Source of the DNA: Isoetes taiwanensis
Taxonomy: Eukaryota > Streptophyta > Lycopodiopsida > Isoetales > Isoetaceae
DNA length: 64,000 bases
Direction: 5' to 3'
Assembly (NCBI GenBank): GCA_021234155.1
Contig: JAJEKV010000225.1
Location: forward strand, 558,001-622,000
Shown: piece by piece, positions 3,088-30,400 of the stretch
Layout of the letters: every line of letters begins with the position of its first letter
Numbering within the stretch: the first letter of the stretch is position 1
Notes under the pieces: generated by a model
Databases searched by the model: none
What the model saw: only the letters and a program-made list of their open reading frames with translations
What the model was told of the DNA's origin: nothing
Position numbers and translations under genes: made by a program

Positions 3088-4569
3088 GACACTTTATGCC
3101 AAGTGGGCCATACCCAAGTGTGCAATTAATGTGCACATTTTCCAATGTGCACATTTATTAATGTGGGCACACCTTTCCATGTGGCACCTTTTGCCACCTA
3201 GCCATTAAAGGCAAGTGGGCCCATTCCCAATTATCCCACATGCCAAAAGGGGATAATTGGAAACCCTAACCACCCCCCTTGTCTATTTAGGAAGGGAAAC
3301 CCTAACTTGCCCATTTTCGTTTCTAGGGTTTTAGAGCTCTGTTTTGGCTGCCCCAAGGGTCAAAACCGCCTCCCAGACTCTGTCTGAGAGAATTGCACCA
3401 TTAGTTTCCCTTGATTCGAGCGTTTCAGCAGGATGGTCGAGCTCAGGTCAGGAGGAGCCACTCAAGGATCAGGTATTTGGCCAATTAACTAGTCTAAACC
3501 CTACTTCAGTCATAGAATCAGTAGGTTTAGCCTATTAAATTGCCCATAGCAACCTTCTAGATCTCTAGATGCCAGACTCTAACTAAAGAACCTAACTCTA
3601 TGATGTAGATTAGATCTAGTTCTTTAGTTCTTCTATGATGTATATGGATGATGTATCTCTATGAACTCCTTGTATTGGGAAGGGTGGGTAGAGACCTAAA
3701 GCTTGGTAGTAGATGCTCCTAGATTAGCCTCTCTAGCACACTATAGTTTCGGCCTGTGTACAAGAACCAAACCTGGTTGTGGGTGAAGGGGCGGTGACCG
3801 GGCTAAGAAGGAGATTCGGTGTCGACTCTTGAGCGATCCCTCCGGGTGTGTAAGGCCCACCTGGGGATCATTGTGACTAGGTCTAATGGCTTACCACCGA
3901 AGTGTGGGTAAGGCATGGGCTCACAACCGTGAAGTGGTGATCATGACTTTCCAAAGTGGTTTCGGTCGAATAAGGGCAAGTGGCCCTCTAGTCACCTTGA
4001 GTCAAGATGGAGATCTCCGAGGGAGTGATCCCTACCTGCCCCTGCCGAGGCGGGAGATGCAACCCGAGGAATAGCCCCTTTGGCTATGCATCCGTGTGCG
4101 GGCTGGTCGAGGTCCCAACACTTCTCAACCTATCACGCAAAGTGTGCAATGGGAGGGGCGGATGGAGTGGACAACCCAATGCCATGTTCTTATGCTAGCC
4201 CAATCCATTGTCATGATTCCATGCGCAGCGAACTCACGGAGACCCAAGCCGTCAGTCGTCCCTTTGAGTCTGAGCCCTGGGTAGGATTCCCCTATGTATT
4301 GTGCTGATCATTGTCCATGCAGATGTGATGTACCACCCTTAAAGGTGGATATATGTGTTGCTCTTATATACTGACATGTATGTTTACGCTTCCGCAGCTA
4401 GGTAGGCCATGGGGGAGACGGGGTAAAATGACCCCTTCACTCTTCCCACTGGAACCCGTCATGGTTGCAGTGTCATGTGGAGGGCCCTGTATCGGCATGG
4501 AGCTGGTATAGAGGGAGAACTCCTGTTTGTATACGGTGAGTGCACCGTATACGAGTAGGGGACGTCACA
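3088..4569 (+). repeat. 5' LTR of chromovirus, missing its first ~204 bp
   Basis: From GACACTTTATGCC (3088) to GGGGACGTCACA (4569) it matches 22158-23625. The first 204 bp of the complete 3' LTR (21954-22157) are absent here and the first element's LTR stands in their place. By eye the two LTRs are highly similar, with scattered substitutions and small indels, for example around 3780-3870 versus 22850-22940. A TATA-like CTTATATACTG lies at about 4363. Confidence 0.9.
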
Positions 4570-4570
4570 G

Positions 4571-4582
4571 TGGTATCAGAGC
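4571..4582 (+). promoter_or_regulatory. primer binding site, initiator Met-tRNA
   Basis: TGGTATCAGAGC lies one base after the 5' LTR end (4569). This is the usual plant iMet-tRNA primer site for minus-strand synthesis. The match ends after 12 bases. Confidence 0.93.
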
Positions 4583-4775: not shown

Positions 4776-4842
4776 GTCTCACGCGTCGCGCCAGGACAGA
4801 TAATGAGATTCTCATTTTTGGGTTGGGCGCAACGTGTGAGAC
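4776..4842 (+). repeat. cruciform repeat H1
   Basis: This 67-bp element begins GTCTCACGCGTCGCGCCAGG and ends CGCAACGTGTGAGAC. The ends pair over about 17-19 bp with one mismatch and one bulge. Nested inside is a second perfect palindrome, AATGAGATTCTCATT. It is the first of four copies (4776, 4978, 6565, 6774). Confidence 0.85.
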
Positions 4843-4977
4843 ATTCAGCTTGAAACATTGAGAAATGTCATGAATCACAGTAAAATAACTTGACAATTCT
4901 AATTTTAAGCTAAGAATCAGTAGAATTGGCATGTTACATGTTTAAAAAGTACAAAATTTAATAGTGGGTCCCACTAT

Positions 4978-5044
4978 GTCTCACACGTCGCGCCAGGACA
5001 GGAAATGACTTTTTCATTTTCGGGCTGGGCGTAGCGTGTGAGAC
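4978..5044 (+). repeat. cruciform repeat H2
   Basis: The outer arms are GTCTCACACGTCGCGCC and GGGCGTAGCGTGTGAGAC. The inner arms are AAATGA and TCATTT, a different sequence from H1 that still pairs. It starts 202 bp after H1 and ends 77 bp before the TATA box of the histone-like unit. Confidence 0.85.
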
Positions 5045-5120: not shown

Positions 5121-5129
5121 TATAAATAG
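5121..5129 (+). promoter_or_regulatory. TATA box of the histone-like unit
   Basis: TATAAATAG lies 109 bp before the ATG at 5230. The leader that follows (CCTCCCATTTCTG.., AAGTTTGCTC.., GGCGATCTTC..) resembles the leader of the second unit at 7030-7100, so the two promoters look duplicated. Confidence 0.65.
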
Positions 5130-5229: not shown

Positions 5230-6420
5230 ATGGCCCGCACAAAACAGATCGCTAGGGAAGCCTTTGTCGGTTTAAGCCCTCCAAACGCCAACGACCGCCT
5301 CGATTCGGAGAGGGTACTCCAAGAACGCCTTCTTCGGCAAGGCGGATCGTCATCCAGTGAGGAAGCGGGATTTCGGACCGAGCGCGGACGGAAGTCATAG
5401 GCAGGAGCCGCCCCGGACATTATGCACCGAGATCCTCGAAGAGATCGCCGAGGAAGAAAGAACGAGCAAGGAGGTAACGGAGCGTGTAGTACCGATGAGC
5501 GCGGCCGCCAAAGCTTACCCTTGTGAAGTCAAAGAAGACCTCCAGCGCCCATCGCAAGTACGAAGATAGGGAGCGCCGCCGAGAGGAGGACAAAGAGACG
5601 GGAGGACAACCCAACCACAGCCGATGAGCCAAAGAAGAAGAAGGCAAAAGGCATCAAGGCGGGCAACAGAAAGGTTGTGAAGGTTGGTGTTTAGGAACGG
5701 GATCACCATCAACGAGCCATCAGCGACGAGATCCCGCCTTCACCGAATTTACTTCGGACGAAGACTACGCGGCCCAACACCGAGGGGCAAGTTCTTCAAA
5801 ACCCCGGCCGTGGAGGAGGAAGTTCCCGGCCAGTGGCACCGAACAGATCAGCCCCGACAACCGAAGGTTCCCACCGCTCCCCGACGTGGGATAGGGTCAA
5901 AGCCCCACGGCCACAACGGGGAGGCATATGTGATAGACCCGCCAAGGTCTATCGAAGAGGATCAAGGAGCACAACGCTTACATGGTGAAGTGGGAGGCAT
6001 ACAATGCCTATTACCAGGAGCAATGTGGTGAGAACGATTGAAGGCGGACACCCGACAAGAAGCCAGACCCTAAAGCCGCCGCCACCGAAGCCCAAGCCTC
6101 CCAGAGCACCAGGAAAGAAGCGGGCCGGCAGGAAGAAGTTGGAGAACAGAGCCCTCAAGGAAATCCGGCACTTCCAGAGAAGTTACGGACTCTTGATCCC
6201 CCGGGCACCGTTTCAACGCTTGGTCCGAGAAGTGATGCAGGAGTACAACACGGACATGCGGGTGACCAATGAAATGTTGCTGTGCCTACAGGAGGCAGCA
6301 GAGGCGAAAATAGTGCAGCACTTTGAAGATTCAACGGCCTGCACAGTTCACGCGAAGAGGGTCACGCTTATGAGGCAGGATATGCACTTAGCTAGGCACA
6401 TCAAGGGAGAGCGCCCTTGA
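5230..6420 (+). pseudogene. divergent histone H3-like protein carried by the chromovirus
   Basis: The N-terminus from ATG 5230 reads MARTKQIAREAFVG. It keeps H3 residues A1, R2, T3, K4, Q5, A7 and R8, while T6, K9 and S10 are changed to I, E and A. At 6118-6420 an intact 100-residue stretch ends the protein with a full H3 histone fold: EIRHFQRS, then PFQRLVREV, LQEAAEA, HAKRVTLM and a GERP terminus. Loop 1 has the canonical H3 length, without the insertion typical of CenH3. Between them (5400-6100) lies a long linker in changing frames with a basic PKKKKAK patch (about 5630) and a possible chromodomain-like strand at 5921-6038. Frame changes suggest a pseudogene or sequence errors. It lies between primer site and gag with its own promoter. 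A nucleosome-incorporating or chromatin-tethering role is inference. Confidence 0.85.
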
Positions 6421-6564: not shown

Positions 6565-6631
6565 GTCTCACACGTCGCGCCAGGACAGAAAATGAGAATC
6601 TTATTTTTGGGCTGGGCGCAACGTGTGAGAC
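6565..6631 (+). repeat. cruciform repeat H3
   Basis: The outer arms are GTCTCACACGTCGCGCC and GGGCGCAACGTGTGAGAC, the cleanest of the four copies, with 11 perfect terminal pairs. The inner core AATGAGAATCTTATT pairs imperfectly. It opens the second promoter unit. Confidence 0.85.
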
Positions 6632-6773
6632 CATGCCCAAATTGGCCCAAAACCGCTCCAAATTCAAATAAGGGGTCAATTGCGCCTAACTTCGACGAAG
6701 TTAAGTAGAATTACACCCTCGTGATCACCCAAACCGATCAAGTTTAGCCCATTTAGACCCCATGTCTCACGTC

Positions 6774-6839
6774 GGCGCCAGGCAGTAAAATGAACTTTCC
6801 ATTATCTGGCCCGAGCTAACGTGTGAGACCTTGCATCAA
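6774..6839 (+). repeat. cruciform repeat H4
   Basis: This 66-bp copy is more diverged: GTCTCACGTCGGCGCC and GCTAACGTGTGAGAC, with inner arms AATG and CATT. It starts 209 bp after H3, almost the same pair spacing as H1-H2 (202 bp). It ends 179 bp before the TATA box of unit 2. Confidence 0.8.
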
Positions 6840-7018: not shown

Positions 7019-7027
7019 TATAAATAG
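7019..7027 (+). promoter_or_regulatory. TATA box of the second cargo unit
   Basis: TATAAATAG, identical to the box at 5121, lies 122 bp before ATG 7141. The leader shares CCTCCATTTCT, AAGTTTGCTC and GGCGATCTTCC blocks with the leader of the histone-like unit. Confidence 0.65.
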
Positions 7028-8661: not shown

Positions 8662-9228
8662 AGTTAGACTCTTGATCCCGTAGACTTTTTATACCAAAAT
8701 ATCTATATATATATAATAATAATGGCGTTTTATGATAGTCTGTGCGCATTTTTGGCCCTTGATTTTGTTGCATTTTAAAACTTCCATTTTTGAGCGTCAG
8801 ATTTAAAAACAGTTGGAAAGCTTTGTATCTGGGTAAATCTGCGCATCCTTCCTTGACAGTTCAAGAATGACGGAATGGCATGGATATTTTTTAGTCGAGT
8901 TCCTGAATGATGGAATGGCATGGAATTTTAGAGTTTTACAAACACAAGAAAAGGAAAAAAGGGACGATGTTGTGGGTGAAAAATGGTCCGGCAAAAAGCT
9001 TTGCCTTGCCATCGACTGCATTTGATTGCATTTTATCCATTCCCATTGCTTATTAATTCTTCCTTTGCTTCCTTTGCCGGTTAGTTTTTTCGAACGGGCA
9101 CCCTCTGTTCAAGAATAAGCTTGTTGCATTCGACCTCTTCAAGCATAGATCACGATTATTAGGTTATTACATACGAAGAGAAGTTTCCCATTGTTTTTTC
9201 TCGGAATAAAATGTTGCTTCTGATTCGT

Positions 9229-9881
9229 GATAAGTTTACGCATATTTCTCGAGGATTTGCTTTTGTGCACTTCAACTCAGTACTCTAATTCTCAATTTAA
9301 TTCTCCCGCTTGCTGAAAGAAGCTTCTCCCAAACTTTGTTTGGTGATTTAATTAGGTCGAAGATGCAACTAGAGCACCGGCCAAAAGCAATAGAACAGCG
9401 TTGGAAAAGAATGGTCAAGTATTGAAAGTGGCTTTTGCAAAGAGTGCCTTTTTTCTGGAGGTCTTTCTTCTCAAAGCTGTAGCTTAGCTGCTGCCGCAAT
9501 TGAGGCAGCGACATTTGCACAACAGGTAATACATGGCCATGATTGCATGACCAATGGTTACTTTATTTCATTGCACCCTGGAATCCTATATAATGTCTGT
9601 TCTTAGGACATCTATAATCATTGTAGCAGACATGGCTCTTTATTGTTTTAGAAGATGTTCCCCATGGTAGCCAGTGTTCCTTAGATTACCTTTTCTGATA
9701 GTTTTTCTTTACTTTCAGTATGACTCTGGGGGTTATGCTTCAAAAGACAGCACTTTTGACAAATCAAAGCCTACTGAAAAGCCTAATCATAATGCAGTTT
9801 CTCAGTCAGGCTTTGTTTGGGATGAGGCTTCTGGATATTATTATAGTGGCGCAGCAGGATTCTACTATGATGGCCATTGTG
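9229..9881 (+). pseudogene. captured RRM-OCRE splicing-factor fragment (SUA/RBM5-like)
   Basis: At 9229-9282 the sequence reads an RRM RNP1 motif (RGFAFVHF). Around 9355-9450 is the end of the RRM (LEKNGQVLKVAFAKS). At 9480-9525 is the alanine-rich AAAAIEAATFAQQ, ending at a GT donor (9526). After a 193-bp intron with a TTTCAG acceptor, exon 9719-9881 encodes an OCRE repeat (FVWDEASGYYYSGAAGFYYD) and ends at another GT donor. This order matches the plant SUA/RBM5/RBM10 family of pre-mRNA splicing regulators. Small indels break the frame before the intron. Kept introns mean the fragment was captured as DNA, not from mRNA. Confidence 0.75.
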
Positions 9882-12400
9882 GTATGTTGTGGACATTCAT
9901 TTCTTTCTCTTCTGTTTGTGCTGATACGTTGGCATCTGTAAAATGCTTCGGAATGTGTTTATGTATTCTAAATCCTTTGAGATTTCATAAAATGCTCTGG
10001 AATGTCTTCACGTTTCAGATTCATTATTGAGAATGGAGTTCTTGATGCTGCTGAAAGCACAAAAATCAAAAGCTTGAGGTTAGTACTTGCAACTAAATTG
10101 TATTTGTACCACTTTCAGTTACGTTAAATCTATTGTGAAAGAAAACCTGAGTTTTAATTAGTTCGAAGCAATGCAATCTATATTCTCATCCCATTTTATT
10201 TATGCAAGGTGATTCAATCTTCCAATGCGACCAGAAAGCGAGTGAACTTTTCAATGTGATTTAGCTATTGTCAAAAGCAAGTGAGCTCTCTGCGAATAAA
10301 GATGCCGTGAAACTAGCATTCATCAAATATCTATTCCGTGTTGAAACAGGTAGAGTCATAGTTTTCTTCATTTTTATTGTTGGCATGTAATAAGGTTTCG
10401 TAGGGATCAGTAATCAGCCTGAGAGGTTCAAATGTGAGGAGACGAGGAGAAATAGATCATTTATGCATTGGGAAGCTCATAGATCTGAAGTTTTATTCAT
10501 GGATCCTGCCTTCAATCTGACAGTGCACAGACATAAGATTATATCTTGGCCTCCCAAACATTGGTCTGCGGAAGGTTCCCTTTTCACTATTTTATTTTCT
10601 TAGCCAGCCTCTTGCAGGTTGAATAAATGAGAATATATTCTTCGTTTTAGAAATCTAATTTTCATGTTGTAAAGATCAGGATCTTGGTTATCCACAATTA
10701 GCAGGTTGAATCTAAATTATACCGGCACCTTGGGACTGCAGAATGACATACAAATTGGATAACATTGAGCTTTTAGATCTTTGCAAGATTTAATCTTTTT
10801 CTTTATTAATCTTCTTTTGTGTTTGGCGACGATGTTTGTAAGGATCATGATATGTGTTCCTTTCTCATTGCGGGTGACTGTAGAAAATAAAATGTTTCTG
10901 TCTCTTTGTAAAGATTGTGGCTAACAGAATCTCTATAGAAAATGATCAACCTAGGCAAAATCTCATATATTGGCAGATTGCTCCACATAGCCTGCAATCA
11001 TTGGATTCAAATCTATTTGCTTTTTAATGCAATAATCTACTATTGCTCAGATTCAATTACATGTTTAGATCTTGCTGAAATTTTAGATACATTTCATGTA
11101 ATGTACATTAAAGCCTTGATTCTTTTGAATGCTTTCTAAGAAATAGAGGTTGCAGCCATGACATGTTTTTAAGATACTCCTGCGATGTTACATAAAGTGT
11201 CATACCATTTGCTACGGAATCCAATACCAGAGTATTAAATGTCTCTCTTATCCATGATCGTTAATTTATGCCAGAATAACCATATGTAATAATTCAGTCC
11301 TGCATAACTGGCCTGCAATAATTATCTCCAGAGGAACTCTGATAGTAGCACAAGGATGTAGAATTTGGCGCCTATTTGCCTTAACTGTTGTGACTTACAA
11401 AATTTTGGGCCAGAACGTAAGAAGTTAAGAACATGCAAAATGCCAAAGATAGATCGTGCTGGTGTTCCTGATATTTAATGCCAGTCCGGTGCCCTTGATA
11501 GTTAGATGCAGCGATGAGAGGTCAGCTGTTTCCTTAATAGACAGACCTGAATATCCATATTACAAGTTTGCATTTTCGTTTTGACCTCACACTTAGGCTA
11601 CCATGGTAGAGAAAAGGGTTATATAGAGAAGTGGAGGAGGACATGGTTTTAGTTTCATTGCAATTCTAATCTCCATTTTTCTGCAATTCTTGACCAGGTT
11701 GCTTTCCCCTGTCGGCTCTATTCTGCACCATTCTATTTAAGCGCTTATCTCAGCTTTATTCAAGGGCTTCTTTCACCTCAGGTACAGATATGGACAATAT
11801 GCATTCCCTTTTGCCATATGTTAAGGTTTCATGCTTTCTTCTGTGTAGCCTAATATTATACACCTGAATACATTAGTTGTTCCCTTAATAAATAGACCTG
11901 AATACGTACTGTCATTTCTGAAAACGCTGCATCTCATGGAAAATCTTTGCAGCAGCAACCATATGTCCTTGGTTTTCTTTTCGTGTATGCAATGTAGACA
12001 ATAACTCCTGATCCTGCATCCATCAATTGTGTATCATGAAGCTGGAAAAAGAAATGGACCTTCCCAACGTATTTATTTCACGCTTGTGTTTTCTATACAG
12101 AAGCTTTCATATGCCTCATTTGTGATATGACGCTTCGGATTACAATCTTCCAAGATAGTAGATGGATGTTAGTGTATGATGGGTTCACAGATAGTTATGT
12201 TTTATGATGTCGTCTGGCCTACCAAACTGTTCTTACATCCAAAAGCTAAATTAAATTTTCTTTCCCAGCATAAAGTTTAAAGGTTCAGTATTGTGGCTGG
12301 CTTTCAACATCAAAACAATATTGCTGCATAGGACAGAAAAAATGGCCATACCAGACATCGCCTACCATATGCATCCGAATTGTAGTTCTCATAGAACAAC
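9882..12400. other. AT-rich Helitron interior without a recognisable gene
   Basis: No convincing coding sequence is present. The part just after 9881 is probably intron sequence of the captured OCRE gene. The first copy of a ~300-bp direct repeat lies at 10553-10853. The rest shows only short chance ORFs, such as 10942-11139. Confidence 0.5.
10553..10853 (+). repeat. direct repeat copy 1 inside the Helitron
   Basis: From CCCAAACATTGG to AAGGATCATGATAT, this matches 13884-14190 over ~300 bp in the same orientation with about one difference per ten bases. The GUN1-like fragment lies between the two copies. Confidence 0.85.
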
Positions 12401-12429
12401 ATCTGGCAGTCTCATTGCATCTTCATGAA

Positions 12430-13261
12430 ATCCTTTTGGCTTCTTTGCACTTTCCCTGTTTACCATAAGAATCAAGTAAAGCATTATAAGTTACAACATA
12501 ATATCCATCTATCACTGTACTATATGTTACTACATTTGGGATGATCGAGTTTAATCTCATGATGGGAACCATGGAAGCAGCGAGTTGCACCTAGCCACCT
12601 TTGCAGAAAGAATCAACAAGAGTGTTGTATGTAAATATATCCTGCGCAATGCCTCTTTGCTGCATTTCTAAGAAGAGCCGCTGTGCCTGTTGCCAAATAT
12701 TCCCCCCTCCACAAACAGCAATCAAGGAATTAAAGGTGATGTGGTCTGGCTGCACTCCTCCTCGCTGCATCTCTTCAAATATCTCTAATGCCTTGGACAA
12801 ATTACCACCACCTTTTCCACATGCATCATTGATTGTATTATAAGTTATAAGATTCGGCTTGCATCCTGACGTTATCATGCATTCAAAACTTCCAGAGCTT
12901 TAAACATTTACCACAACGGCATAAGCATTAATCAATGCAGAATAAACATACACATTGTTCCCAAACCCAGCTGATTTAACTTTGTAGAACACTTTTTCTG
13001 CAATCTCAACTTTTCCTAACTTTCCAAGTTATAAGATTGCTCTTGCTCCATTGCCCACTTAAACCCTTTCTGCATAACCATCCATTCAAAACTCTTAAGA
13101 GCTTTTTCCCATTCTCCTTTATTGCCAAGCTCTCTAAGAATGTAAGGCAAATGTTGAGCCAAGAAGCTTTTGGAAGCTTTTTCAAGGGAGCCCCATGTAT
13201 AGAAACATAGATCGTCTTTGGCATTTAAATGTAATCTTAGATGGGTGTTGATAAGAATCAA
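12430..13261 (-). pseudogene. GUN1: GUN1-like pentatricopeptide repeat protein, broken fragment
   Basis: Read on the minus strand, the order is RELGNKGEWEKALKSFEW (about 13150), GKVEIAEKVFYKVKSAGFGN (about 13020), CKPNLITYNTINDACGKGGG (about 12870), GVQPDHITFNSLIAVCGGG, then IAQDIFTYNTLVDSFCKGG (12591), and finally IIPNVVTYSTVIDGY joined to VVTYNALLDSYGKQGK (about 12560-12450). These are consecutive 35-residue PPR motifs, and their wording and order fit GUN1, the chloroplast PPR-SMR protein of retrograde signalling. Stops and frameshifts interrupt it, and the join near 12510 skips at least one repeat, so it is an internally deleted fragment. The SMR domain is absent. A minus-strand ORF at 13362-13598 could be an upstream exon but has no PPR signature. 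Confidence 0.82.
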
Positions 13262-13883
13262 TCGGATAGGAAAGAAACCATAGAGGAATCAAGCACAAAC
13301 GATTTGTCTAGGATAGTTTGAAAAAGAACTTCGACTGTGGAATTTCGATAATACCGCTTTTTCAAATCTGTGGATCCTTGCTTTGTAGCATGTTATCTCT
13401 TCTTCTTGGTTCGGGTGCAAATGATGCTAACAACTCTCTTCGTTGATCTCCGGAAAGCGGTGAAAGCACCGTACATTTGTATGAATTTTCACCTTTAAAT
13501 AAGCTGTCCAAGACTCGTGCTTTATTCTCACAATAAAGAGTTGGTCTATTTCTTTGATCTTCTATGTTATTTTTTTCATTTGCATCTATGCCATACAAGT
13601 GTACAGTTTAGGTTTTGTCAAATTGAAATATCGGTCAAAGTTTTCCTTATTTTATGCTTTCTTTGAGAGGAAGAAGCAGGATGAATGCACCGAAGCTCCA
13701 CAAAGATGGCGTAAGCATGGCCACTAATTTTGAGCCATTGCATGCCTTTGGATTCTTCAAATATCGCCCGCACATTGCATGCACAAGGTTTTAAAAACAA
13801 AGATAAAGGCGCAAAGACATTTGTAAAATTATATACCCACAAAGAAGAAGGCTTAGAAGACGTGCAATATGACTATTTAAGTT

Positions 13884-14190
13884 CCCAAGCATTGGTTTGC
13901 GGAAGGTTCCCTTTTCAATATTGTATTTTCTTAGCTTGACCTCTTGCGAGTTGAATAAATGAGAATATATTCTTTGTTTTAGAAATTTAATTTTCATGTT
14001 GTAAAGATGGGATCTTGGTTATCCACAATTAGCGTGTTGAATCTAAATTATACTTGGTACCTTGGGACCTGCAAGAGAATGACATACAAATTGGATAACA
14101 TTGCGAGCTTTCGTCTTTGCAAGATTTAATCTTTTTCTTTATCAGTCTTCTTTTGTGTTTGGTGACGGTGGTTTCTAAGGATCATGATAT
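13884..14190 (+). repeat. direct repeat copy 2 inside the Helitron
   Basis: Second copy of the 10553-10853 repeat, 3,331 bp downstream. A partial echo of its middle (GTTATCCACAA..AAGTTGAATC..GCAGCACCTT) follows at 14190-14245. Confidence 0.85.
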
Positions 14191-16086
14191 TAGTTATCCA
14201 CAAACTTGCAAGTTGAATCAACAGAATTATAGCAGCACCTTTGAAGCGCTATATCAAAGTTATTGTTATCTGCTTCACACTGAGGCGGTAGAAGAACAAT
14301 AAGCTTTTTATTTATCTCATTTCACCAAGCAAATTTCTGCTTCAGGTTTGAAATTTTAGGCATGCAGAAACTCAAAACCTTATCCATGTAGCGTGAACAC
14401 AGGGTTTCACAATAGGTGGTTATGAATAAGATTTTTTTTGCTTTATCTATCTATTTATTCATTTCTCTAAGCTATTGATGTTTAACTACAGCTGTTTAGA
14501 CTGTCAATCATAGATATTTCGTTTATTATTTGCAAATTTGAATAGTTTCATTTACTGGGAAGGTCTATTAGTTCCAGTCAAGATGGGAAGTAAGGACAAA
14601 GCAATATAGGTGCTTTAGTGCATAAGTCGTCGGTGATGATGGATAGGTTTGATGTACATGAATATTGAAGTTTGATTCCTCTGGTTCATGCATCTTGTAG
14701 TTGGTACTGAAATTTATTAAGTTAAGTTTTGCAGGACAACCACACTGCTGTGATTGTTCTCCAATATGAATGCATTAATAGTTCCCACATGGTAAAACGA
14801 AATTGTACAGTTAAGTACATGTGCGTCAATTCTACTTAGAAGAATGCATGCACATAATATGGCACGGTGGTGACTTGCATTTTGATGTTGGCCTACATTT
14901 TGTACTTTACTGAAGCATTTCCTTTATCATTTGAAATACAATAATTCGTTCTTTAAAACAACTTTCTTTGAAATACAATAATTCGTTCTTCAAAATAACT
15001 TATATCGTAAAATGCCTTAAAACTATTGTAATTGGTATTTTAGAAGCAAGAAACCTCGTGCACTCTTCTTTTTCCGCCAGTTGACTGTCGACATTTATGG
15101 CGAATAAATTAGGAAAAATTGTGAAGATGCTCTTGTATTTTATGAAAATTATGAAAATGCCCTTGTATTTTCTTAAATTATTGAATGCCCCTATGTTTTC
15201 CTATGCAAGCAAGAATGGGCCATCGCTTAAAACAATCAAATAATAAAGTAAGTTTGTTTGATTACATTTCTCTGAACCTCTTCTTCCTTGGAAGATAACG
15301 AAAATTGTTTTTATTTATAAAACAAATAACGTTATAGTAAATATATAAATCTGCACTATTGTCAATCTGTACCAGAGTTTTATCTTATTGAGCAATATGT
15401 CTGCCTATATGGCATCTTTAATAGTATTTCATTATACTTGTGCAGAGGTGACATCCTGTTCTAGACATGAGCGGATGCCTACCATTAATAGGCTAGCCAA
15501 CACATGATGGATGTGCGCTTTTGTGTCAAGTTTGGGCCAAATCAAACTAGCATCTTTAGCATGGGCACCGATGGGAAAGTATGAAATGGGTCTAGCTATG
15601 TTAGCTTGGATTTGAGATATTTTTGTGGATCCAGTTTGCATTTCAGATTTGCTGTGAATTTCTATTGAAATAAATAGAATTGCCTAGACTTCTCGATTCA
15701 ATAGGACTATAAGAAGCTCCAAATAAGAACTGAATTGAATGGGTTTTTATTGAAGGTATGGAATTTTTAAAATCCACTACTCTTATTAGTTTTTTAATCA
15801 TATGCCCATGCATTCTGGAAGAGAAGAGGGCAGGATCAGCAATATTGGTAGATCATTTTCTCTCTCTATCAGCGCCTTCAAATTCTAAAAGAAGTTAACC
15901 AATAAATGCACTAACTATACTATCTATTGCTTTAGGATGTCTCCTTTGCACACTTGAGTTATAACACACAAAATATTTGCAAGATTACACATTTATTAAT
16001 ATTCGTTCGACATTTAGGATTAGATTAAATCCCTTCTCAAGTGGATTCTATCATTTTGTATTTTTCTAAATTATATCCGACGAAAA
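14191..16086. other. AT-rich Helitron 3' region without genes
   Basis: No coding signal is visible. It holds a 37-bp tandem duplication (14931-14967 and 14968-15004, TTGAAATACAATAATTCG) and a looser repetition of a TTGTATTTT-containing phrase at about 15115-15180. Confidence 0.5.
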
Positions 16087-16114
16087 GCCCAGCAACGCTG
16101 GGCACTTTTTCTAG
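16087..16114 (+). repeat. Helitron 3' terminal hairpin and CTAG end
   Basis: The stem is GCCCAGC (16087-16093) with GCTGGGC (16097-16103) around loop AAC. ACTTTTT and CTAG follow, then the host T at 16115. It serves as the rolling-circle terminator of the element. Confidence 0.92.
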
Positions 16115-16246
16115 TTATATAATATAAATATAATTTCTTTTGCACCTTAAATGTTTTGTTGATATATTTCGTTCCACAACTATGCCAACAAACCACATAT
16201 AATGCAAAAGAACAAGTAAAACTAACCGTATAGCAATGAATTACTT
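16115..16246. other. chromovirus sequence resumed before gag
   Basis: AT-rich leader (TTATATAATATAAATATAAT..) between the Helitron end and the first gag-like frame. No ORF is visible. Confidence 0.5.
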
Positions 16247-17178
16247 GTGTATGCAGTTAGAGGCCTAGGCTCAGGGGAACGACAACGCCAAGACCTTAGA
16301 GAAGAACAGAGTCCGCCCAGGCCACCTCCGGCAAGGAACCTGTTTGAGGAATTTGGACCCATGACCCCAGAAGAGGAAATATCCAGGATGAGGGCGGACC
16401 TTGAGCAAGATAAAGGCCTTGGCGGCCGCTGCTGCTGGAGCAGGTCCGGTGGGCAACGCCGATGCCAAGCATCAGCTTTCGGAGAGCAGGAAGGGACAAG
16501 AAGAGGAGCAAGAGAAGGAGATCCTCCAGCCCGGAATCTTCCGACTCAAGCTCAGATTCAGACTCCGACTCCAAGGAAGAAGAAGAGCAGGCCCAAGACC
16601 GAACAGATGGAAGGCAAGGGAACGCTGCAGATAGAAGGCAGAGAGACACCCCAGAGGGACGACAAAGAGACACAAGAGCCTCTGACTACCAGAAGAAGGT
16701 GGACTCTGCATTAGGAAATGTCTGGAAAGCCAGGAAGCTCGAGCAGTTCTCGGGCGAGAACAGGTCAGGAATGGAGGCGGAGGCTTGGCTCGAGGAGATG
16801 AGCGAATATGGCAACGCTTATGGTATGAAGGATAAGGATAAAGGCAGGGTGGCAACAGCCAACCTGAAAGGAGCAACACGCATTTGGTGGAAGGGTTATG
16901 CCAAGGCACACGGATTAAGCAGGGATGCTTGCAGATTCAAGAAGTTTGCTAAAGCCTTCAAAGCGCCACTCACGTCCTTAAGAGAGCACAAGTCCAAAGA
17001 TGATGCCAGTTCTTGTGTTGCGGCAAGGCAACAAGTCACCCGTAAATATCTGAGAGGAATTCATGAGGCTAAGGCTTTATGTGCCAAAGTTGAAGCATCG
17101 CGAGAAAGCTATATTGAGGGGCTGAATGAGGAGATCCGCGAGCTTGTGAGGGCAATAAACCCTAAGACAAGATCGTAA
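16247..17178 (+). pseudogene. gag polyprotein of the chromovirus
   Basis: The coding sense runs through three frames: 16247-16400 (EEFGPMTPEEEISRMRADLE), about 16401-16480 (IKALAAAAAGAGPVG), then 16462-17178. The last part has an SR/acid-rich segment (KRRRSSSPESSDSSSDSD) followed by the Ty3 capsid signature (LEQFSGENRSGMEAEAWLEEM, then ATANLKGATRIWWKGY). Two frameshifts prevent one continuous product. No CCHC zinc knuckle is clearly readable downstream (17180-17600), where the frames are scrambled. Role: virus-like particle assembly in the cytoplasm. Confidence 0.85.
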
Positions 17179-17602
17179 GCGGCGAGTCCAAGGCTATAAG
17201 CTTGCAAGGGGCCGGGACCTCGAGAATAGCAGGGCGAGGCAGCAATATTTCCGGGATAAAGGCAAGGCGACGAGGAAGCTATAGCCCTAGGGCAGCCGGT
17301 CCAGTCCATCTAGAGCCCCATATGGTGGCAACCGTGGGAAGCGGCGAGAGAAGAAGCGGTGTCCTTCAAGGACAAAGGGGAGGGGTCAAACTATTCCAAA
17401 GCGATGCGATCCTTTTTGCGAGCTATGCCCAAGGAGAAGAGGCGGAGGTATGTAAAAGCGGCTTTGCTTCAAAGTGCTTCGCCCAGGCCATAGGGAATGG
17501 CGCCCCTACGTCATGAGTGCAAAACACTAGCAGAGTTGGGAGATTGGGACATCTGTCGACGGCAACGGCAGCGAGGAAGCCCGCGACTACATTCGGGGTG
17601 AG

Positions 17603-18556
17603 TGTCATATCTTTGCCGCAATAGATACTGAGCAAAGCGAGAGTCAGTATAAGGTAATTTCTACAGTAGGGAAGGCCAAGGCCAAGTCCTTCATAGTCCT
17701 GATAGACTCAGGAAGTAGCCATAACTTTGCATCCCCCAGAATGGTTCACATGTTGAAGTTGAAGCCACTAAAGTCGAAGCCAAGGCCCGTTGTCTTAGCA
17801 AGTGGAGCAGTAAGACAGACGGCAGGCAAGAGAATTAACTTCGACATCGACTTGCCAGGGATTAATATCCAGATGGGGGCAGAAGTAATGGGCATTGGCA
17901 AGTATGACTTGATCATAGGAATGGAGTATCTTGGACCAGCAGAAGCCATCATTGATTGTGGAAAGCGGAAAGTGACCTTCCCAACACCCGACGGCAACAT
18001 CATTGAGATCACAGGTAAAGAAGTTGTTCCCATCATGCAGTGTATGTCTTCTAAACGGCTGTTCAAGTGCATCAAGAGTGAGCAAGTAGCATACATTTTC
18101 AAGCTTGAGATTGAAGAGCCGGACTCCGAAGAAAGTAAAGAAGACAGGGTGCTCAGCAAGTTGCCGAGGCAAATAGCTCAGCTGATCACGGAATTCCACG
18201 ATCTCTTTCCTGATGAGATCGAGCACCTCCCTCCTTACAGGCGAGTCGAGTGTGAAATAGCACTCGAACCGGGAACAAAGCCGACAAGTAAGGCTCCATA
18301 CAGAATGACGACGCAGGAGCTAACAGAGCTGAAGAAGCAATTACAGGAGTTGCTCGACCTAGGCTTCATTAGACCTAGCGTCTCGCCATTTGGAGCACCC
18401 ATTCTCTTCGTAAAGAAGAAGGATGGCAGTTTAAGGATGTGCATAGACTATAGGCAGTTGAACAAGCACACCATTAAGAACAAGTATGCGCTCCCCAGAT
18501 CAGATGGCTTGATGGATCAACTCCAAGGTGCAAAGGTCTTCTCCAAAATCGACTGA
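17603..18556 (+). pseudogene. pol part 1: aspartic protease and N-terminal RT
   Basis: One open frame. The retropepsin active site reads [13 protein letters not shown] at about 17680-17720, with a [10 protein letters not shown] flap region downstream. RT begins near 18200 ([17 protein letters not shown]), followed by [20 protein letters not shown] and [17 protein letters not shown]. The frame closes at TGA 18554-18556 in the RT sequence FSKID*RSGYHQI, where Ty3 elements normally have leucine. The same frame continues open after it, so this is a single nonsense change rather than a frameshift. Confidence 0.93.
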
Positions 18557-20299
18557 AGGTCAGGTTATCATCAGATCAGGATAAAGGAAGAGGATATCCA
18601 TAAGACCGCCTTCAGAACGTGGTATGGACATTATGAGTTCATGGTAATGCCTTTCGGCTTATCGAATGCCCCCGCGACGTTCATGAGGCTCATGAACGAC
18701 ATCTTCAGGGAGTTTTTAGACACCTTTGTGATTGTATTCTTTGATGACATTTTGGTGTATAGCAGATCCCTCGAGGAGCACGTACAAAACTTGAGGAGAG
18801 TGCTGGAAAAGTTGAAGAGGCACCAGTTGTACGCCAAGTTATCGAAGTGTCACTTCGCAACGGAGAAGGTGGAATACCTAGGTCATGTGATCTCAGCAGA
18901 AGGAATCTCGACGGACCCTTCCAAGATTGTAGCCGGCATTCAGTGGCCGGCACTGAAGAATGTGCATGAGGTCAGAAGCTTTCTCGGCCTAGCAGGGTAC
19001 TACAGGAAGTTCGTGAAGAACTTTGCTAAGATAGCGGCCCCGCTAACAGACTTGACGAGGGCGGAGAAGGTGAAAGATTGGGTAGAGCATTGGCACAAGA
19101 AAGCCCAAAAGGGATTCAAATTGTTGATGGAAGCTCTAACAACCGCCCCCGTCTTAACTCTGCCGGATCCGGAGAAAGATAAGCTTGTGGCGACAGATGC
19201 GAGTAAGATAGCTACAGGTGCGGTGCTTATGCAAGAAGAGCGTGTGGTAGCGTATGACTCCAGGAAGATGAACGACGCCGAAACGCGCTACCCCACGCAT
19301 GATCAGGAATTGCTTGCGGTTGTCAGGGCGTTAAGAATCTGGAGGCACTATCTCTTGGGAAGGAAGTTCCAATTGGATACCGACCATCAGAGCCTCCAGT
19401 ATGTATTCACGCAACCACACCTTAATCTAAGGCAGCGGAGGTGGATGGAGTTCCTCGAGGAATATGACTTTGATATAGTCTACAAGCCAGGGAAGCTGAA
19501 TGTGGTAGCGGATGCGCTTTCAAGACATCCCCTGACAACGAGAGTGCATTGCAATGCAATTTCGACGCTTTCCAGCGACTTCGGGAAGAAGATTGAAGAG
19601 TCCTTGCCAACGGATGTGGATTTCAGGGAAGTATGGGCAAGCCTCTCTAGGGAGGCTAGAACAGATAAAGAGCGGGAAGCCTTCAAAAATTTTAAGAAGG
19701 AAGGTAACCTCTTATATCATAAGAACAAGATGTGTGTGTCCGAATCATCAGGCATAAGGAAATTGATCCTCCATGACACGCACAACAGTCCAATAGCTGG
19801 CCATGCAGGATTCATGAAAACATATTTCAAAGTGCGCAGCAGCTATTATTGGCCAGGAATGAAGAAGCAAGTAGCTCGCTACATCAAGGAATGTCACTAT
19901 GTCGGCCGTGACGGCGCGAAACGACTTCAATTCGGGGCATTAGAGCCATTAGCGGTGCCAAACGCCAAGTGGGAAGTGATTAGCATGGATTTTATAACAG
20001 GGCTTCCAAGGACAGTAAGAGGGAAGGATGCCTTGATGGTAGTGGTCGACAAGTTGTCAAAGATGGCACACTTTGTGCCTTGCAGGACCACAGACACCGC
20101 TATGGATACATCAAAGCTCTTCACCAAAGAGATCTTTAGGCTTCATGGCATGCCAAGGGAGATCATCTTCGACAGGGATCCGAAATTCATGAGCGCCTTT
20201 TGGCAAGACCTCTTTTCTGACGATTCAGACCAAGCTATCCATGAGCACAGTATCATCCTCAGACGGATGGCAAAGCGGAGGCGGACCACAGGATTTTAG
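18557..20299 (+). pseudogene. pol part 2: RT catalytic core, RNase H, integrase N-half
   Basis: This continues in the frame of part 1 after the TGA. RT core: [12 protein letters not shown], then the catalytic FFDDILVYS (about 18740), YLGHVIS and the connection [11 protein letters not shown]. RNase [40 protein letters not shown]. Integrase: HH-part [14 protein letters not shown], where the second half of the zinc motif is degraded (ECHYVGRDG instead of a CxxC), first Asp in SMDFITGLP and second Asp in IIFDRDPKF. Near 20215 a frameshift leads to an early stop at 20299. Confidence 0.93.
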
Positions 20300-20757
20300 A
20301 GAACATGCTACGAAACTATGTCTGGAATAAGCAAGGTATGTGGGAAGAATTTATTCACTTGGTGGAGTTTGCATACAATAGCACCAAGCAGGAATCATCC
20401 CAAATGTCGCCGTTTATGATCAATTACGGCTATCAGTGCCTAACTCCAGACACCTAGCACAATCCCGTGTCAAAAGTGGAAGTTTCGCAGCAGATGTTGG
20501 CCGATATGCAGCAGCTCGTGGAAGAAGTTCGAGGGTATCTACTAGGAGCAAGAAGTCGACAAAAGAGCATCGCCGACAAGCATCGAACAGTTAGAGAGTT
20601 CCAAGTTGGCGACCATGTTTGGTTGAAGATCAAGGTAAAGCAGGCGAAGCTCAGGATCGGGAATTGTAAGAAGCTTGCTCCAAGGTGGGCTGGACCCTTC
20701 AGAATAGAAAAGAGAGTAGGTAATCAATCCTACAAGCTAGAATTGTCAGTCACCTAA
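20243..20757 (+). pseudogene. pol part 3: integrase C-terminal half
   Basis: After the frameshift the frame reads [20 protein letters not shown], containing the third catalytic residue (Glu), then FAYNSTKQESSQMSPFMINY. It is broken by TAG at 20455-20457. It continues as an integrase linker (RQKSIADKHR, then FQVGDHVWLKIK, APRWAGPFRI), the GPY/F-like module that precedes chromodomains in chromoviruses. Confidence 0.9.
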
Positions 20758-21080
20758 AGATTCATAAGGTCTTCCACGTGAGTTTGTTAAAGAAGCATAC
20801 TCCAAATCCAGACGAAGTCTTGGACACTCCAACGTTGTTGGAAATGACGGAGGAGCAGCTGGAAATAGTTCCAGAATTGATTCTTGATAAAGCTTTCAAG
20901 AAAACAAGGAGGTCGGAATTCCTCCAATACTTGGTCAAGTGGAAACACTTGCCAGTGGAAGACGCGACATGGGTACTTAAGAAAGATCTAATAAAGCAGT
21001 ACCCACAGTTTATGGAGCAATGGGACGGCAAGGTCATCTCCGAAGAAATCGGCTCAGGCATGTCGATTTGTGTAGATTAA
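20758..21080 (+). pseudogene. pol part 4: chromodomain
   Basis: Frame-shifted from the integrase, it opens with the Ty3 phrase KVFHVSLLKKH and ends with a chromodomain: PELILDKAFKKTRRSEFLQY, then LVKWKHLPVEDATWV and DLIKQYPQF. The aromatic Y/W positions of the cage are present. In chromoviruses this domain reads histone marks to steer integration. The ORF ends at TAG 21078-21080. Confidence 0.92.
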
Positions 21081-21953: not shown

Positions 21954-23625
21954 TGTGACGTTCGAAGCGATTCACGGTCCCGGGGCGATATCGCATCGCC
22001 CTAAACGCAGCATTACCGCGCCCCCGACGGACGGTAATGCCGACGACGTATTATAGCGCGCAGTAGCCCCTAGGGGGCAACTTGCAGGGAATGTGCATTT
22101 ACTAATGTGTGCATTTAACCATGTGCACATTAATCTAGGTGCACATTTTCCAATGTGGACACTTTATGCCAAGTGGGCCATACCCAAGTGTGCAATTAAT
22201 GTGCACATTTTCCAATGTGCACATTTATTAATGTGGGCACACCTTTCCATGTGGCATCTTTTGCCACCTAGCCATTAAAGGCAAGTGGGCCCATTCCCAA
22301 TTATACCACATGCCAAAAGGGGATAATTGAAAACCCTAACCACCCCCCTTGTCTATTTAGGAAGGGAAACCCTAACTTGCCCATTTTCGTTTCTAGGGTT
22401 TTAGAGCTCTGTTTTGGCTGCCCCAAGGGTCAAAACCGCCTCCCAGACTCTGTCTGAGAGAATTGCACCATTAGTTTCCCTTGATTGGCGAAGCAAGGAT
22501 GGTTAGATGGCTCGAGGTCAGGAGGAGCCACTCAAGGATCATGTATTTGGCCAATTAACTAGTCTAAACCCTACTTCAGTCATAGAATCAGTAGGTTTAG
22601 CCTATTAAATTGCCCATAGTAGCCTTCTAGATCTCTAGATGCCAGACTCTAACTAAAGAACCTAACTCTATGATGTAGATTAGATCTAGTTCTTTAGTTC
22701 TTCTATGATGTATATGGATGATGTATCTCTATGAACTCCTTGTATTGGGAAGGGTGGGTAGAGACCTAAAGCTTGGTAGTAGATGCTCCTAGATTAGCCT
22801 CTCTAGCACACTATAGTTTCGGCCTGTGTACAAGAACCAAACCAGTTTGTGGGTGAATGGGCCGGTGGCTAAGAAGGAGATTAGTGTCACGACTCTTGAA
22901 CGATCCCTCTGGTGTGTAAGGCCTACCGGGGATCATTGTGACAAGGTCTAATGGCTTACCACTGAGTGTGGGTAAGGCATGGGCTCGACACCCGTGAAGT
23001 GGTGATCATGACTTTCCAGTGGGTTGTCGAATAAGGGCAGTGGCCCTCTAGTCACCTTGAGTCAGCATGGAGATCTCTGGAGGGAGTGATCCCTACACCC
23101 TTGGAGGCGGGAGATGCAACCCGAGGGAATAGCCCTTTGGCTATGCATCCGGCGGACTTCTGATCAGGTCCCAACACTTCTCAACCTACTCTGCAAAGTG
23201 TGCACAGGAGGGGCGGATAAAGTGGACAACCCAATGCCATGTTCTTATGCCAGCCCAATCCATTGTCATGATTCTGTCTGCAACGAACTCTGGAGACCCA
23301 AGCCGTGAGTCGTCCCTTTGAGTATGAGCCCTGGGTAGGATTCCCCTATGTATTGTGCTGATCATTGTCCATGCAGATGTGATGTACCACCCTTAGGGGT
23401 GGATATATGTGTTGCTCTTATATACTGACATGTATGTTTACGCCCATGACTAGGTAGGCCACGAGGGAGGCGGGGTAAAATGACCCTTCACTCTTCCCCT
23501 TTGGAACCCAGAATCCACGGTTGCGGTGTCATGTGGAGGGCCCTGTATCGGCATGGAGCTGGTATAGGGGGAGAACTCCTGTTTGTATACGGTGAGTGCA
23601 CCGTATACGAGTAGGGGACGTCACA
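21954..23625 (+). repeat. 3' LTR of chromovirus, complete, 1,672 bp
   Basis: It begins TGTGACGTTCG and ends GGGGACGTCACA, so the ends form a 7-bp inverted repeat (TGTGACG/CGTCACA). The first 204 bp include several GTGCACATT variants (22093-22160) and are not represented in the clipped 5' LTR. It is followed by AGATT and then HARBI1-like coding sequence. Confidence 0.93.
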
Positions 23626-24204: not shown

Positions 24205-24385
24205 TGATTCAAAGATTGCTTCGCGCCAACAGACATTGAATTCCCAGCAGGTAGATTTTTGCTTTCGGGGGTTACTTCAAAGAAACGGCCGCTGTTAAGG
24301 TCCGAGTTAGCTCCCTCCCCGAGCCTCCGAGAGGAGCTATACGTATTAAACTATATCTCCGCCAGAGGCGATAAATGTGGGAAAC

Positions 24386-27435
<3,050 letters not shown>

Positions 27436-27477
27436 GAAATGAAATTTATTATTTCGCCTTCTATGTCTATGAGACGT

Positions 27478-30400
27478 TTACATATTGCCTTCAAAATCAT
27501 AAAACAGATCATCCAGTGCATCCTCTGAGAATAATACACTGGGCTCCTCTACCTCTATCTCCTCTACTGCATGTTGTTTCAATAGGTCCTCTCTGCGTCT
27601 CAGAATATCAACAATGCACCCCCCAATACATGATCCTGGATATGAGAAGAAATCACCAAGCGAAGTAGCCAAAATCCCATGCTTGAGTCTGATGCTCGAA
27701 TATGCCTGACAGGAAATCAAGACGTGAGCCTCGTCCTCTACCACCTCTCCATCACACACCCTGCAATGCCTAATGTCATGTGCAATATTTGCCCATCTTC
27801 CAATCTCTACCCCCAGGTGATGAGAGCTCAATCGAATCCTGGCAATCGCTTGTCTATATTTTACTGATATGGGCTCCCCAAGGTAACGTGCTGCCTGCAT
27901 GGAAGGATTCATATGTAATCTGTAATACTCTTTCTTCACGGCTGGCATACTCCATGACTTATGTCGAAAGCTATCCCTGACCCATCCCTCTATATTTTCC
28001 CTATGTACTTCTAAATCATGAATACTCATCCCCCATTTTATAAGCCATCTCTCAATGTCTGCATACCAACCCTTGTTTTTTGTTTCCTCTAGAGCAAGTC
28101 GTGGTAGACTATTGATTGGCAACTCATATATAACCTTACACATATAGCGTAAGAGTCTGCAAAGTGCTTCAGCCTCAAGTGGCATCATCCCACATTCTGC
28201 CAACATCATATCGTATGGTGTTTGCATTTTGGTACCTAGCTCCGTATGAAAAAATTTCTTTTGTATCTTTTCTACTTTTTTCCAGCTGTCATTAGCAAGG
28301 CCTGGCCCCCAGACTTCACACCCATATAGCACAACAGTTTGCACCAATACCTTGTATAACATGCGCTTCATCTCAAAATTCCATACCTCCGCGTGCACGC
28401 ACTTTTTTTGCATAGCATATAGTGCCTTTAAGCCCGCATTCACTCTATGCTCAACTGCTTGGTTCCAGTTGGGGCTCTTATCTACGTTCACCCCCAGATA
28501 TTTGTAGTTATCTACCACCTCTACGTGTTTGCCCATATAATGTAGCTGAATGTGATCAGTCTTACTTGCCCCAAATACCACAACTTTGGTCTTATCCATA
28601 TTCACCTGCATACCCTGATTACTGCAGAATGTCGCCAACGCATCTAAGTGTCTTTGCATCCCTTGTATGCTCCGGGATAACAAAACGATATCATCGGCAT
28701 ACAGTAGGAGCCTGAGAACATATCCATACAAAGGTGTGCCATCTCCCCCATGTGCGCCTATCCATTCTTCCAACTGGTCTATGAATAACCCAAATAGCGT
28801 AGGTGATAAGGGGCACCCCTGCTTCACACCCATATTGCTCTCTGCTACCTCGTCACAAAATTCAACAAAAGGAGATGACAATTTCACAAGTACCTTATCA
28901 TAAAGTACCCTTACCGCATGCCTGAGCTCCTTCGGGATACCAAGATCCACCATCCTATGTCCCAAATTTTCTCTATTTACCATATCGAAAGCCTTGCTAA
29001 AGTCCACAAATATAGCGTATACGGTTTCCCTTTTCCCCACTCACTGAGTCCATCATGGCCCCGAGAGTAATCAAGTGATCGATCGTGGACTTCTCTTGGG
29101 CCTAAAACCCGCCTGTCCCCCACATACGACATTATGGTCTTCTGCCCACATACTCACCTTGCTCTCCAGAATAGATGCAAACAGTTTTGCATACAAGCTG
29201 CTCACCATGATAGTGCGGTAGTTGTTCGGATCTTTTTTATCCCCTGACTTGTGCAATGGTACAATCCTGTTAATTTGCCACGCCGCAGGGAAGCCATCTG
29301 TCAAAGCTATATTAAACATATCTGCCAACTTATTTTCAAGCTTCCCCGCCCATTTAAGTAGTTCCGCCATGAGACCACAAGCATCAGCCGCTTTGCCATT
29401 AGCAAGTCTCTTGAGCCCCCCCCGCACATCCTCTACAGTGAATGTCAGCATATCTGCTATAGTATCCGTGTCATCTGCCATCTTTTTGCCTCCGGGCACA
29501 TCATAAAGCTTGCGCACATGCGCCATAAGCATCTCTACTCGCAGTTCACTATCCGCATTTTTCAAAGGTTTGAGTCGCCTGCAATTTTTTGGGTCCACCA
29601 ACAATTCTTTTACCATCGTCTCATGTTTCCTGTATAGATACACTCTCTTTTTGTTTTTTATCAGCTTAATATACTCCTTTCTTTCCTGTGTCTTAGCTGC
29701 TCCATGTGATGATTTGAATTTTTCCCGCTGTCGCTTGCATTCCATGTCAAACCAGCCATTGCAGGGCAATCCCATCCTTTGGCGATATGAGACAAAACAA
29801 GCTGCTCGCTGATTGAAGCAAAATATTAGTCAACACATCACTTATCTCCTGTAATGAGTTCGGCCATACTAGAGCCTTAACTTTCTCCTCGCACATATCG
29901 CTGTATCTCTCCGCCTTATCATATCTCAGCTGCATCTTTCGTTTTTTTGTCGTTTCAACCCGCTGACGCCCCTGCAATTGCACCCTTATTTCAACAAATA
30001 TCGGCACATGGTCCGAATTTTTTTCATTCGTCCCCAATAGATATGCTAACAATATGTTCTCCAAAGGAAGGTTTAGCAATGACATAGTCTACCACGCTTG
30101 CATTTTTACAGGTGCATTTACCCGATCTCGGATATCTTGTTGTGCCATTGAAAATTACCATGTCAAAACCACTACACATATGCAGGACATGCCGGCCTTG
30201 CGGAGTTGGCCATTTCACCAAGTCGTCAGATGTCCTATTCCACCCAGTTTCCTCAAGCTCACCATTATCCATCATCTCCAACCACTCCTCCTTCCCATCT
30301 GGGCTTACCAATGCTGCTTGGTTGTTACCAGTGCGTCCATTAAAATCCCCCATTAGCAAAACTTCCCCTGTTCTACTCAGTGCCAGAATATCCTGCTCTA

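Follow-up and report, generated by a model that had tools for sequence, protein, structure and literature searches.

An Isoetes taiwanensis chromovirus with an accessory histone H3-like gene that is multi-copy and under purifying selection

Introduction

Plant chromoviruses, which belong to the Ty3/gypsy elements, share long terminal repeats (LTRs), a primer-binding site (PBS), gag, the enzymes protease, reverse transcriptase (RT), RNase H and integrase in this order, and a chromodomain on the integrase. All of these were found in the element described here, which lies in a stretch of 64,000 nucleotides of the Isoetes taiwanensis genome (assembly GCA_021234155.1, contig JAJEKV010000225.1, forward-strand positions 558,001 to 622,000), hereafter the window. 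It differs from plant chromoviruses in two additional sense-strand genes, each behind a TATA-like box, between the PBS and gag, the first of which encodes a histone H3-like protein. Hosts ordinarily encode the core histones themselves, and they restrain transposons mainly through heterochromatin. The element is of a familiar type, its accessory gene of a new one: an H3 that is real, under selection and abundant.

Extra open reading frames (ORFs) occur in other LTR elements, ORF1 of Ogre/Tat among them. The elements with an 'add. ORF' in a paper on the Tcn1 clade likewise have an accessory ORF beside gag-pol (PMC2864245); here the accessory gene is a recognisable core histone, whereas in the accessible part of that paper the word 'histone' occurs once, on chromodomain targeting. 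Captured core histones are found in other selfish DNA, namely nucleocytoplasmic large DNA viruses and, as H4, bracovirus, in a review whose accessible text does not contain 'retrotransposon' or 'retrovirus' (PMC9145170). The present gene differs from these viral histones in belonging to a reverse-transcribing element, in being H3 alone and in having a long insert between tail and fold. The centromeric variant CENH3 (CENP-A) also combines an H3 fold with a long N-terminal part. CENH3 is marked by a longer loop 1 and by a C terminus other than GER. Membership in CENH3 was rejected, as the element's protein has no loop-1 insertion relative to H3, ends in GER and starts with an H3-type tail, in an alignment that had canonical H3 rows and no CENH3 sequence; KEIRHFQ, LLIPRAPF and RVTLM in its fold are residues that we take to be CENH3-like. 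An initial inspection of the letters of the window (the sequence-only reading) knew of no described LTR retrotransposon with its own H3; none was found in searches of PubMed Central for retrotransposons with histones or accessory ORFs, a scope beyond which lie most subscription papers and bioRxiv preprints.

Results

An H3-like gene between primer-binding site and gag

The first accessory gene, unit 1, opens with the tail-encoding start MARTKQIAREAFVG and closes with a histone H3 fold in the same reading frame, with stops between the two in the window copy. The fold matches histones in Pfam and H3 in the PDB far above chance (Table 1). This confirmed the proposal of the sequence-only reading that an H3-like tail and a complete H3 fold lie between the PBS and gag of a chromovirus. 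Seven clean copies of family A encode proteins of 398-422 amino acids (aa) that start with MARTKQTARKP or near it; six of the seven reproduce H3 residues 1-9, and the remaining copy has T7. In this protein, ~300 residues that include acidic and basic stretches are inserted between the tail ARTKQTARKP and the fold. Canonical H3 comprises about 136 residues with the tail adjoining the fold, and since the element's protein is far longer and has the insert, it is classed as an H3-like variant.

The tail was surveyed in 30 loci including the window copy, nine of which lack the MARTK string. The MARTK start is readable in the other 21, in some of which it is not in frame with the fold, and 18 of these 21 have K9 followed by P10. 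The sequence-only reading had noted that K9 and S10 are both replaced. This describes the window copy correctly; in the majority of readable tails, position 10 is proline and K9 is kept. As the window copy is among the three exceptions, its E9 is a private decay. The further suggestion that the loss of K9 evades the main heterochromatin mark fell with this result, and K9 loss as an adaptive feature was rejected, as K9 is also kept in a second element family (family C, below).

Copy number and gene order

The genome searches covered the source assembly of 1,658,258,908 bases in 1110 contigs. A 143-aa piece of the H3-like protein gave 10,682 first-look candidates, which also take in other H3 sequences and are therefore not a copy count. 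Scoring was done for the best 150; their identities span 85-100%, most have no stop, and open frames reach 491 aa. Among the 30 best matches, longer stretches were read for ten, which all lie on the plus strand. All ten share one order, in which the H3-like gene comes first and a further gene, unit 2, second, each behind its own TATAAATA box; nine have gag after this cassette on the same strand and nine have LTR sequence before it. A chromodomain lies within reach in six, and a third TATAAATA precedes gag in four. Second elements that lie by chance in two of the stretches (L042 and L052) also have the H3-like gene followed by unit 2. The order PBS, H3-like gene, unit 2 and gag, which the sequence-only reading had wanted to see in other copies, is thus repeated across the genome. 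In the window, a 7.4-kb Helitron-like insert lies between unit 2 and gag.

Copies were also approached from the enzymes. An RT-RNase H query gave 34,512 first-look candidates, of which 126 places were scored. Among ranks 1-60, 21 places, the window included, have one of the 150 scored H3-like places on the same strand no more than 16 kb upstream; for 14 of them the distance is 5.05-5.14 kb. From the other 39, we drew 20 at random and read 591 bases at the expected distance. An H3 fold was present in 12 of these 20 slots, in subfamilies that are 51-82% identical to the window by best piece. A one-off capture or assembly artefact was therefore rejected: 150 copies were scored, the order is repeated, and the fold recurs in copies chosen by their RT. 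In several places (L057/L058, L047/L048/L061, L041/L042, L051/L052), H3-bearing elements adjoin or apparently nest in each other, and one family C copy seems, by eye, to have a family A copy inside its gag region.

Selection and age

The fold could be aligned in eight of the 12 RT-chosen copies, four having been dropped for gaps or frameshifts. With a nonsynonymous divergence (dN) of 0.131 and a synonymous divergence (dS) of 0.798, the ratio is 0.16, and the ratio of 0-fold to 4-fold sites for transversions only is 0.19. Among the 30 best H3 matches, the fold gives a dN/dS of 0.046, a value that is lowered by the selection of these loci as best H3 matches, so that the RT-chosen set serves as the main evidence. 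The transversions-only ratio in these 30 is 0.049, and transition bias and CpG decay hence do not explain the low ratio. A one-off capture and an absence of selection, the two outcomes that the sequence-only reading had named beforehand as speaking against its proposal, were looked for; neither occurred, and the comparison across copies that it had suggested revealed purifying selection.

Along the whole protein, seven clean ORFs, kept from 12 rows and all picked for an open frame (frameshifted rows had inflated the N-terminal estimate), yield an overall dN/dS of 0.16. Columns 1-250 of their alignment, which lie outside the search piece, were divided into five blocks of 50 columns, each with a ratio of 0.19-0.28; for columns 251-422 the ratio is 0.02-0.09. 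Within the H3-like protein, constraint is strongest in the fold-bearing C-terminal part. No selection value is given for unit 2, since the first 200 columns of its alignment mix frames.

The LTR pairs of six copies, some with partial LTRs, diverge by K 0.010-0.046; a seventh pair (L041, K 0.101) is doubtful, as what was taken for its 3' LTR may be part of the following element. Between copies, synonymous divergence amounts to 0.35-0.80. Most of it predates the insertions, because it exceeds the divergence of the LTR pairs, and we infer from the sequences that the H3-like gene has been kept through many rounds of transposition. The gene is multi-copy, moves with the element and has been under purifying selection over the element's history.

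Three families with the cassette

The two-gene cassette before gag is present in chromoviruses of three families in this one plant genome. In family C, seen in L058 and the stretch next to it, L062, the PBS-like TGGTATCAGAGC and a TATA-like box are followed by an H3-like protein that starts with MARTKQTYRK and contains the fold, and after it by unit 2; between families A and C, the unit 2 proteins match with E 4e-47. The family C tail keeps K9 and has T at position 10. Family B (L048), whose upstream end lies outside the stretch seen, encodes a 414-aa ORF1 that starts with MANTKS and has the fold at its end, followed by unit 2, gag and pol. The family B fold has 83% identity with a Capsella H3 and 86% with an H3 of the host, and its unit 2 matches that of family A at the profile level (E 4.8e-9).

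A first H3 tree was weakly resolved. In a second tree, of the folds, families A and C group together (support 96/96) and B groups with host H3; the approximately unbiased (AU) test gives A, B and C as one clade p 0.053. Judging from the tree, family B may have taken up H3 anew or had it replaced later within one cassette. Both one cassette with later H3 replacement in B and differing rates would fit the tree.

A canonical H3 query gave 8,859 first-look candidates, of which 150 places were scored. Fifteen are full-length at 88-89% identity to a Capsella H3, followed by a sharp score gap, and from their sequences we read these as the host H3 genes, distinct from the element H3. The other 135 are fold copies at 66-85% that start at H3 residue 4-38, many of them in long open frames; they are read as family B type, of which one was seen in context. 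H3 counts in a seed-free plant genome can be dominated by transposons.

Related proteins in public sequences

A search for long H3 proteins, in which the full 396-aa reading defined the candidate lengths, gave 87 public-sequence candidates, of which 18 are long H3 proteins. Three clusters, P0246 (392 aa, 212 member sequences), P0247 (60) and P0256 (21), with members counted at 90% clustering, have a MARTKQTARK-like tail, a long insert and an H3 fold in 367-392 aa. All three, known from protein sequence, share the LCLQEA and ALKxIRH residues with family A; the fold of P0246 is 57% identical and its insert not demonstrably homologous. Homology of the P0246 insert to unit 2 was rejected as improbable. 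Families A and C together with the P0246 type as one clade were not rejected (AU p 0.26), and the three clusters possibly represent the same kind of element in another organism. In a scan of viral contigs, ten stretches fitted a search pattern and none was confirmed. Contigs of prokaryote metagenome-assembled genomes contained ten loci, six of them at 79-84% identity, which we infer to be eukaryotic contamination.

Possible functions of the H3-like protein

In our view, the chance is roughly one half that the protein serves as an H3 variant within nucleosomes, on chromatin of the element or of its targets. We postulate that it would enter the nucleus, pair with H4 via its conserved fold and be placed in nucleosomes, which could lie on target chromatin or on the element's own DNA, be it a new insertion or cDNA. 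In these nucleosomes, it would display a tail that bears K4 and K9 and could not be phosphorylated at position 10, where P10 replaces S10, a residue that is phosphorylated in H3. The outcome would be chromatin favourable to the element, through less silencing or self-targeting. The strong constraint on the C-terminal part with the fold favours a nucleosome over a bare decoy, and the retention of the tail favours modification or reading of K4 and K9. Several positions look kept in the alignment that are presumably nucleosome-contact sites.

A number of observations weigh against a nucleosomal role. The fold is only 46-48% identical to canonical H3 and changes R63 to P and K56 to R, sites that we take to be DNA-contacting or modified in H3. 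The predicted structure of ORF1, the H3-like protein, is poor (mean predicted local distance difference test, pLDDT, 50.5). Family B lacks the MARTKQ tail, which is thus not needed everywhere. The fold is missing from eight of the 20 RT-chosen slots: the portion of ORF1 that precedes it occupies two, unit 2 another two and LTR or leader a further two, and the last two match nothing used; at least four of the eight are shifts rather than absence, as ORF1 or unit 2 is present there. Moreover, constraint shows function, not which one.

A more far-reaching form of the nucleosomal reading, which we offer tentatively and think less likely than not, is that the element may write its own chromatin: the H3 variant with K4 and K9 and a partner protein, unit 2, would make distinctive nucleosomes on copies or targets that could be read by the element's own integrase chromodomain. 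If true, a mobile element would thereby encode a complete chromatin address of its own.

Alternatively, the protein could be a histone mimic that stays out of nucleosomes, its ARTKQTARK end occupying writers, readers and erasers of H3K4 and H3K9 or the H3 chaperones and so blunting silencing. The exact H3 residues in nearly all clean family A copies, the near-identical tail of family C and the long insert with its charged stretches would suit such a decoy, which we nevertheless consider rather unlikely, since it needs little beyond the tail, whereas the fold-bearing part is the most constrained and family B has the fold without the tail.

That the variant serves as an integration address, marking target chromatin or coating cDNA so that the chromodomain of the same element's integrase recognises it and steers new copies there, seems to us unlikely. 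Chromoviruses in general target chromatin and are not known to have an H3 of their own, binding of the chromodomain to the tail is putative, and the nesting of elements may be due to chance. On the other side stand the presence of a chromodomain in the element, the retention of K9 in most readable tails and the direction of integration to heterochromatin by chromodomains that recognise histone marks, as stated in the accessible part of PMC2864245.

A nucleocapsid-like protein that packages RNA or cDNA in virus-like particles might be expected of an element-encoded product with basic stretches upstream of gag, but the gene has its own TATA-like box, is set before gag and is unfused, a normal gag is present, and the conservation is H3-specific rather than generic, all of which makes this role improbable. 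A passenger, be it a single captured H3 pseudogene or a misassembly, can practically be dismissed: although the window copy itself is broken, 150 copies were scored, ten have the same order, two further families carry the same cassette, and dN/dS is far below 1 even in copies not picked by H3.

That a reverse-transcribing element keeps its own H3 under selection, with no fewer than 150 copies scored, implies that transposons either can edit nucleosome composition or imitate it, and the elements described here may be making, or mimicking, the very chromatin by which they are ordinarily silenced. The choice of chromatin by chromoviruses, the escape from silencing marks and the origin of divergent H3 variants become testable questions.

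Organization of the element

The features of the element are collected in Table 1. The assignment to the chromoviruses rests on protease, RT, RNase H and integrase with a chromodomain downstream of the gag region; the best-ranked protein match has 54% identity over 95%. Copies with both LTRs span ~13 kb. The PBS is, as we assume, of the initiator-Met tRNA type. In one locus (L026), the TATAAATA box lies at an odd distance from the H3-like gene. The window gag piece 16414-17175 has no match in Pfam; in copy L041, gag is recognised by Retrotrans_gag and Ty3_capsid matches.

Table 1. Features of the chromovirus in window coordinates.
Feature	Position	Strand	Remark
5' LTR, left end missing	3088-4569	+	92.5% identity to 3' LTR; K (Jukes-Cantor) 0.0455
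Primer-binding site TGGTATCAGAGC, PBS-like, after 5' LTR	4571-4582	+	exact string in 7 of 10 other copies
First pair of palindromic repeats, ~66 bp, at 4777 and 4979	4777-5044	+	
TATAAATA box, TATA-like, ahead of unit 1; putative promoter	5121-5128	+	10 of 10 copies; 28 of 30 loci
Unit 1, decayed H3-like gene (MARTKQ tail, long insert, H3 fold)	5230-6420	+	four in-frame stops; frame open from tail to fold in seven clean copies
Histone H3 fold	6100-6417	+	PF00125 (Pfam Histone) E 4.1e-29; PDB histone H3 E 1.2e-29
Second pair of palindromic repeats, at 6566 and about 6762	6566-6834	+	both in 24 of 30 loci
TATAAATA box, TATA-like, ahead of unit 2; putative promoter	7019-7026	+	10 of 10 copies
Unit 2, decayed gene, protein ~508 aa	7141-8663	+	open in L055 and L052; homologues in families B and C
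Helitron-like later insert, foreign to the element	8702-16114		flanks adjacent in 8 of 10 other copies
gag region, broken in window	16226-17500	+	window piece matched by tblastn, same strand, in 9 of 10 copies
Protease, reverse transcriptase, RNase H, integrase	17531-20760	+	RT-RNase H at 92-100% identity in 126 scored genome places
Integrase C-terminal region and chromodomain	20757-21065	+	PF00385 E 8.8e-11 (3.4e-10 in L044)
3' LTR (TGTGAC...GTCACA)	21954-23625	+	

Unit 2, palindromes and the Helitron-like insert

Unit 2 was located in the window and at L055:4089-5612, L058:5134-6387 (minus strand) and L048:4794-5981 (minus strand). It has no convincing match in Pfam, NCBIfam or the PDB, where only weak ones (E 0.07 or more) appeared, and its predicted structure is poor (mean pLDDT 32.7). 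Two 66-bp palindromes, ~200 bp apart, precede each accessory gene in most copies. Special conservation of these palindromes was rejected, the repeats before unit 2 having identities of 0.917 and 0.897 between copies, against 0.957 and 0.878 in the spacer.

Helitrons are recognised by a TC start, a hairpin followed by a CTRR end, and insertion at A|T without duplication. The 7.4-kb insert between unit 2 and gag starts with TC, ends in a hairpin and then CTAG, and lies at an A|T site, features of its ends and insertion site by which it is classified as a later Helitron-like element. It is not part of the chromovirus, as its two flanks are adjacent in most other copies. The insert carries OCRE and PPR gene fragments and contains an internal direct repeat (10552-10853 and 13883-14190, 89%).

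Other features of the window

The window has no tRNA and no Rfam match. Long simple repeats of the GA/CT type with 8-base spacing (24306-24650 and 27196-27445) lie near ORFs of an RT resembling that of long interspersed nuclear elements (25663-29829, by eye). An ORF with a B3 DNA-binding domain (44039-44494; PF02362, E 3.4e-18) is probably part of a host gene. Mutually similar ORFs, as if tandemly repeated, were seen by eye in a GC-rich region (56-58%) at 52129-58069.
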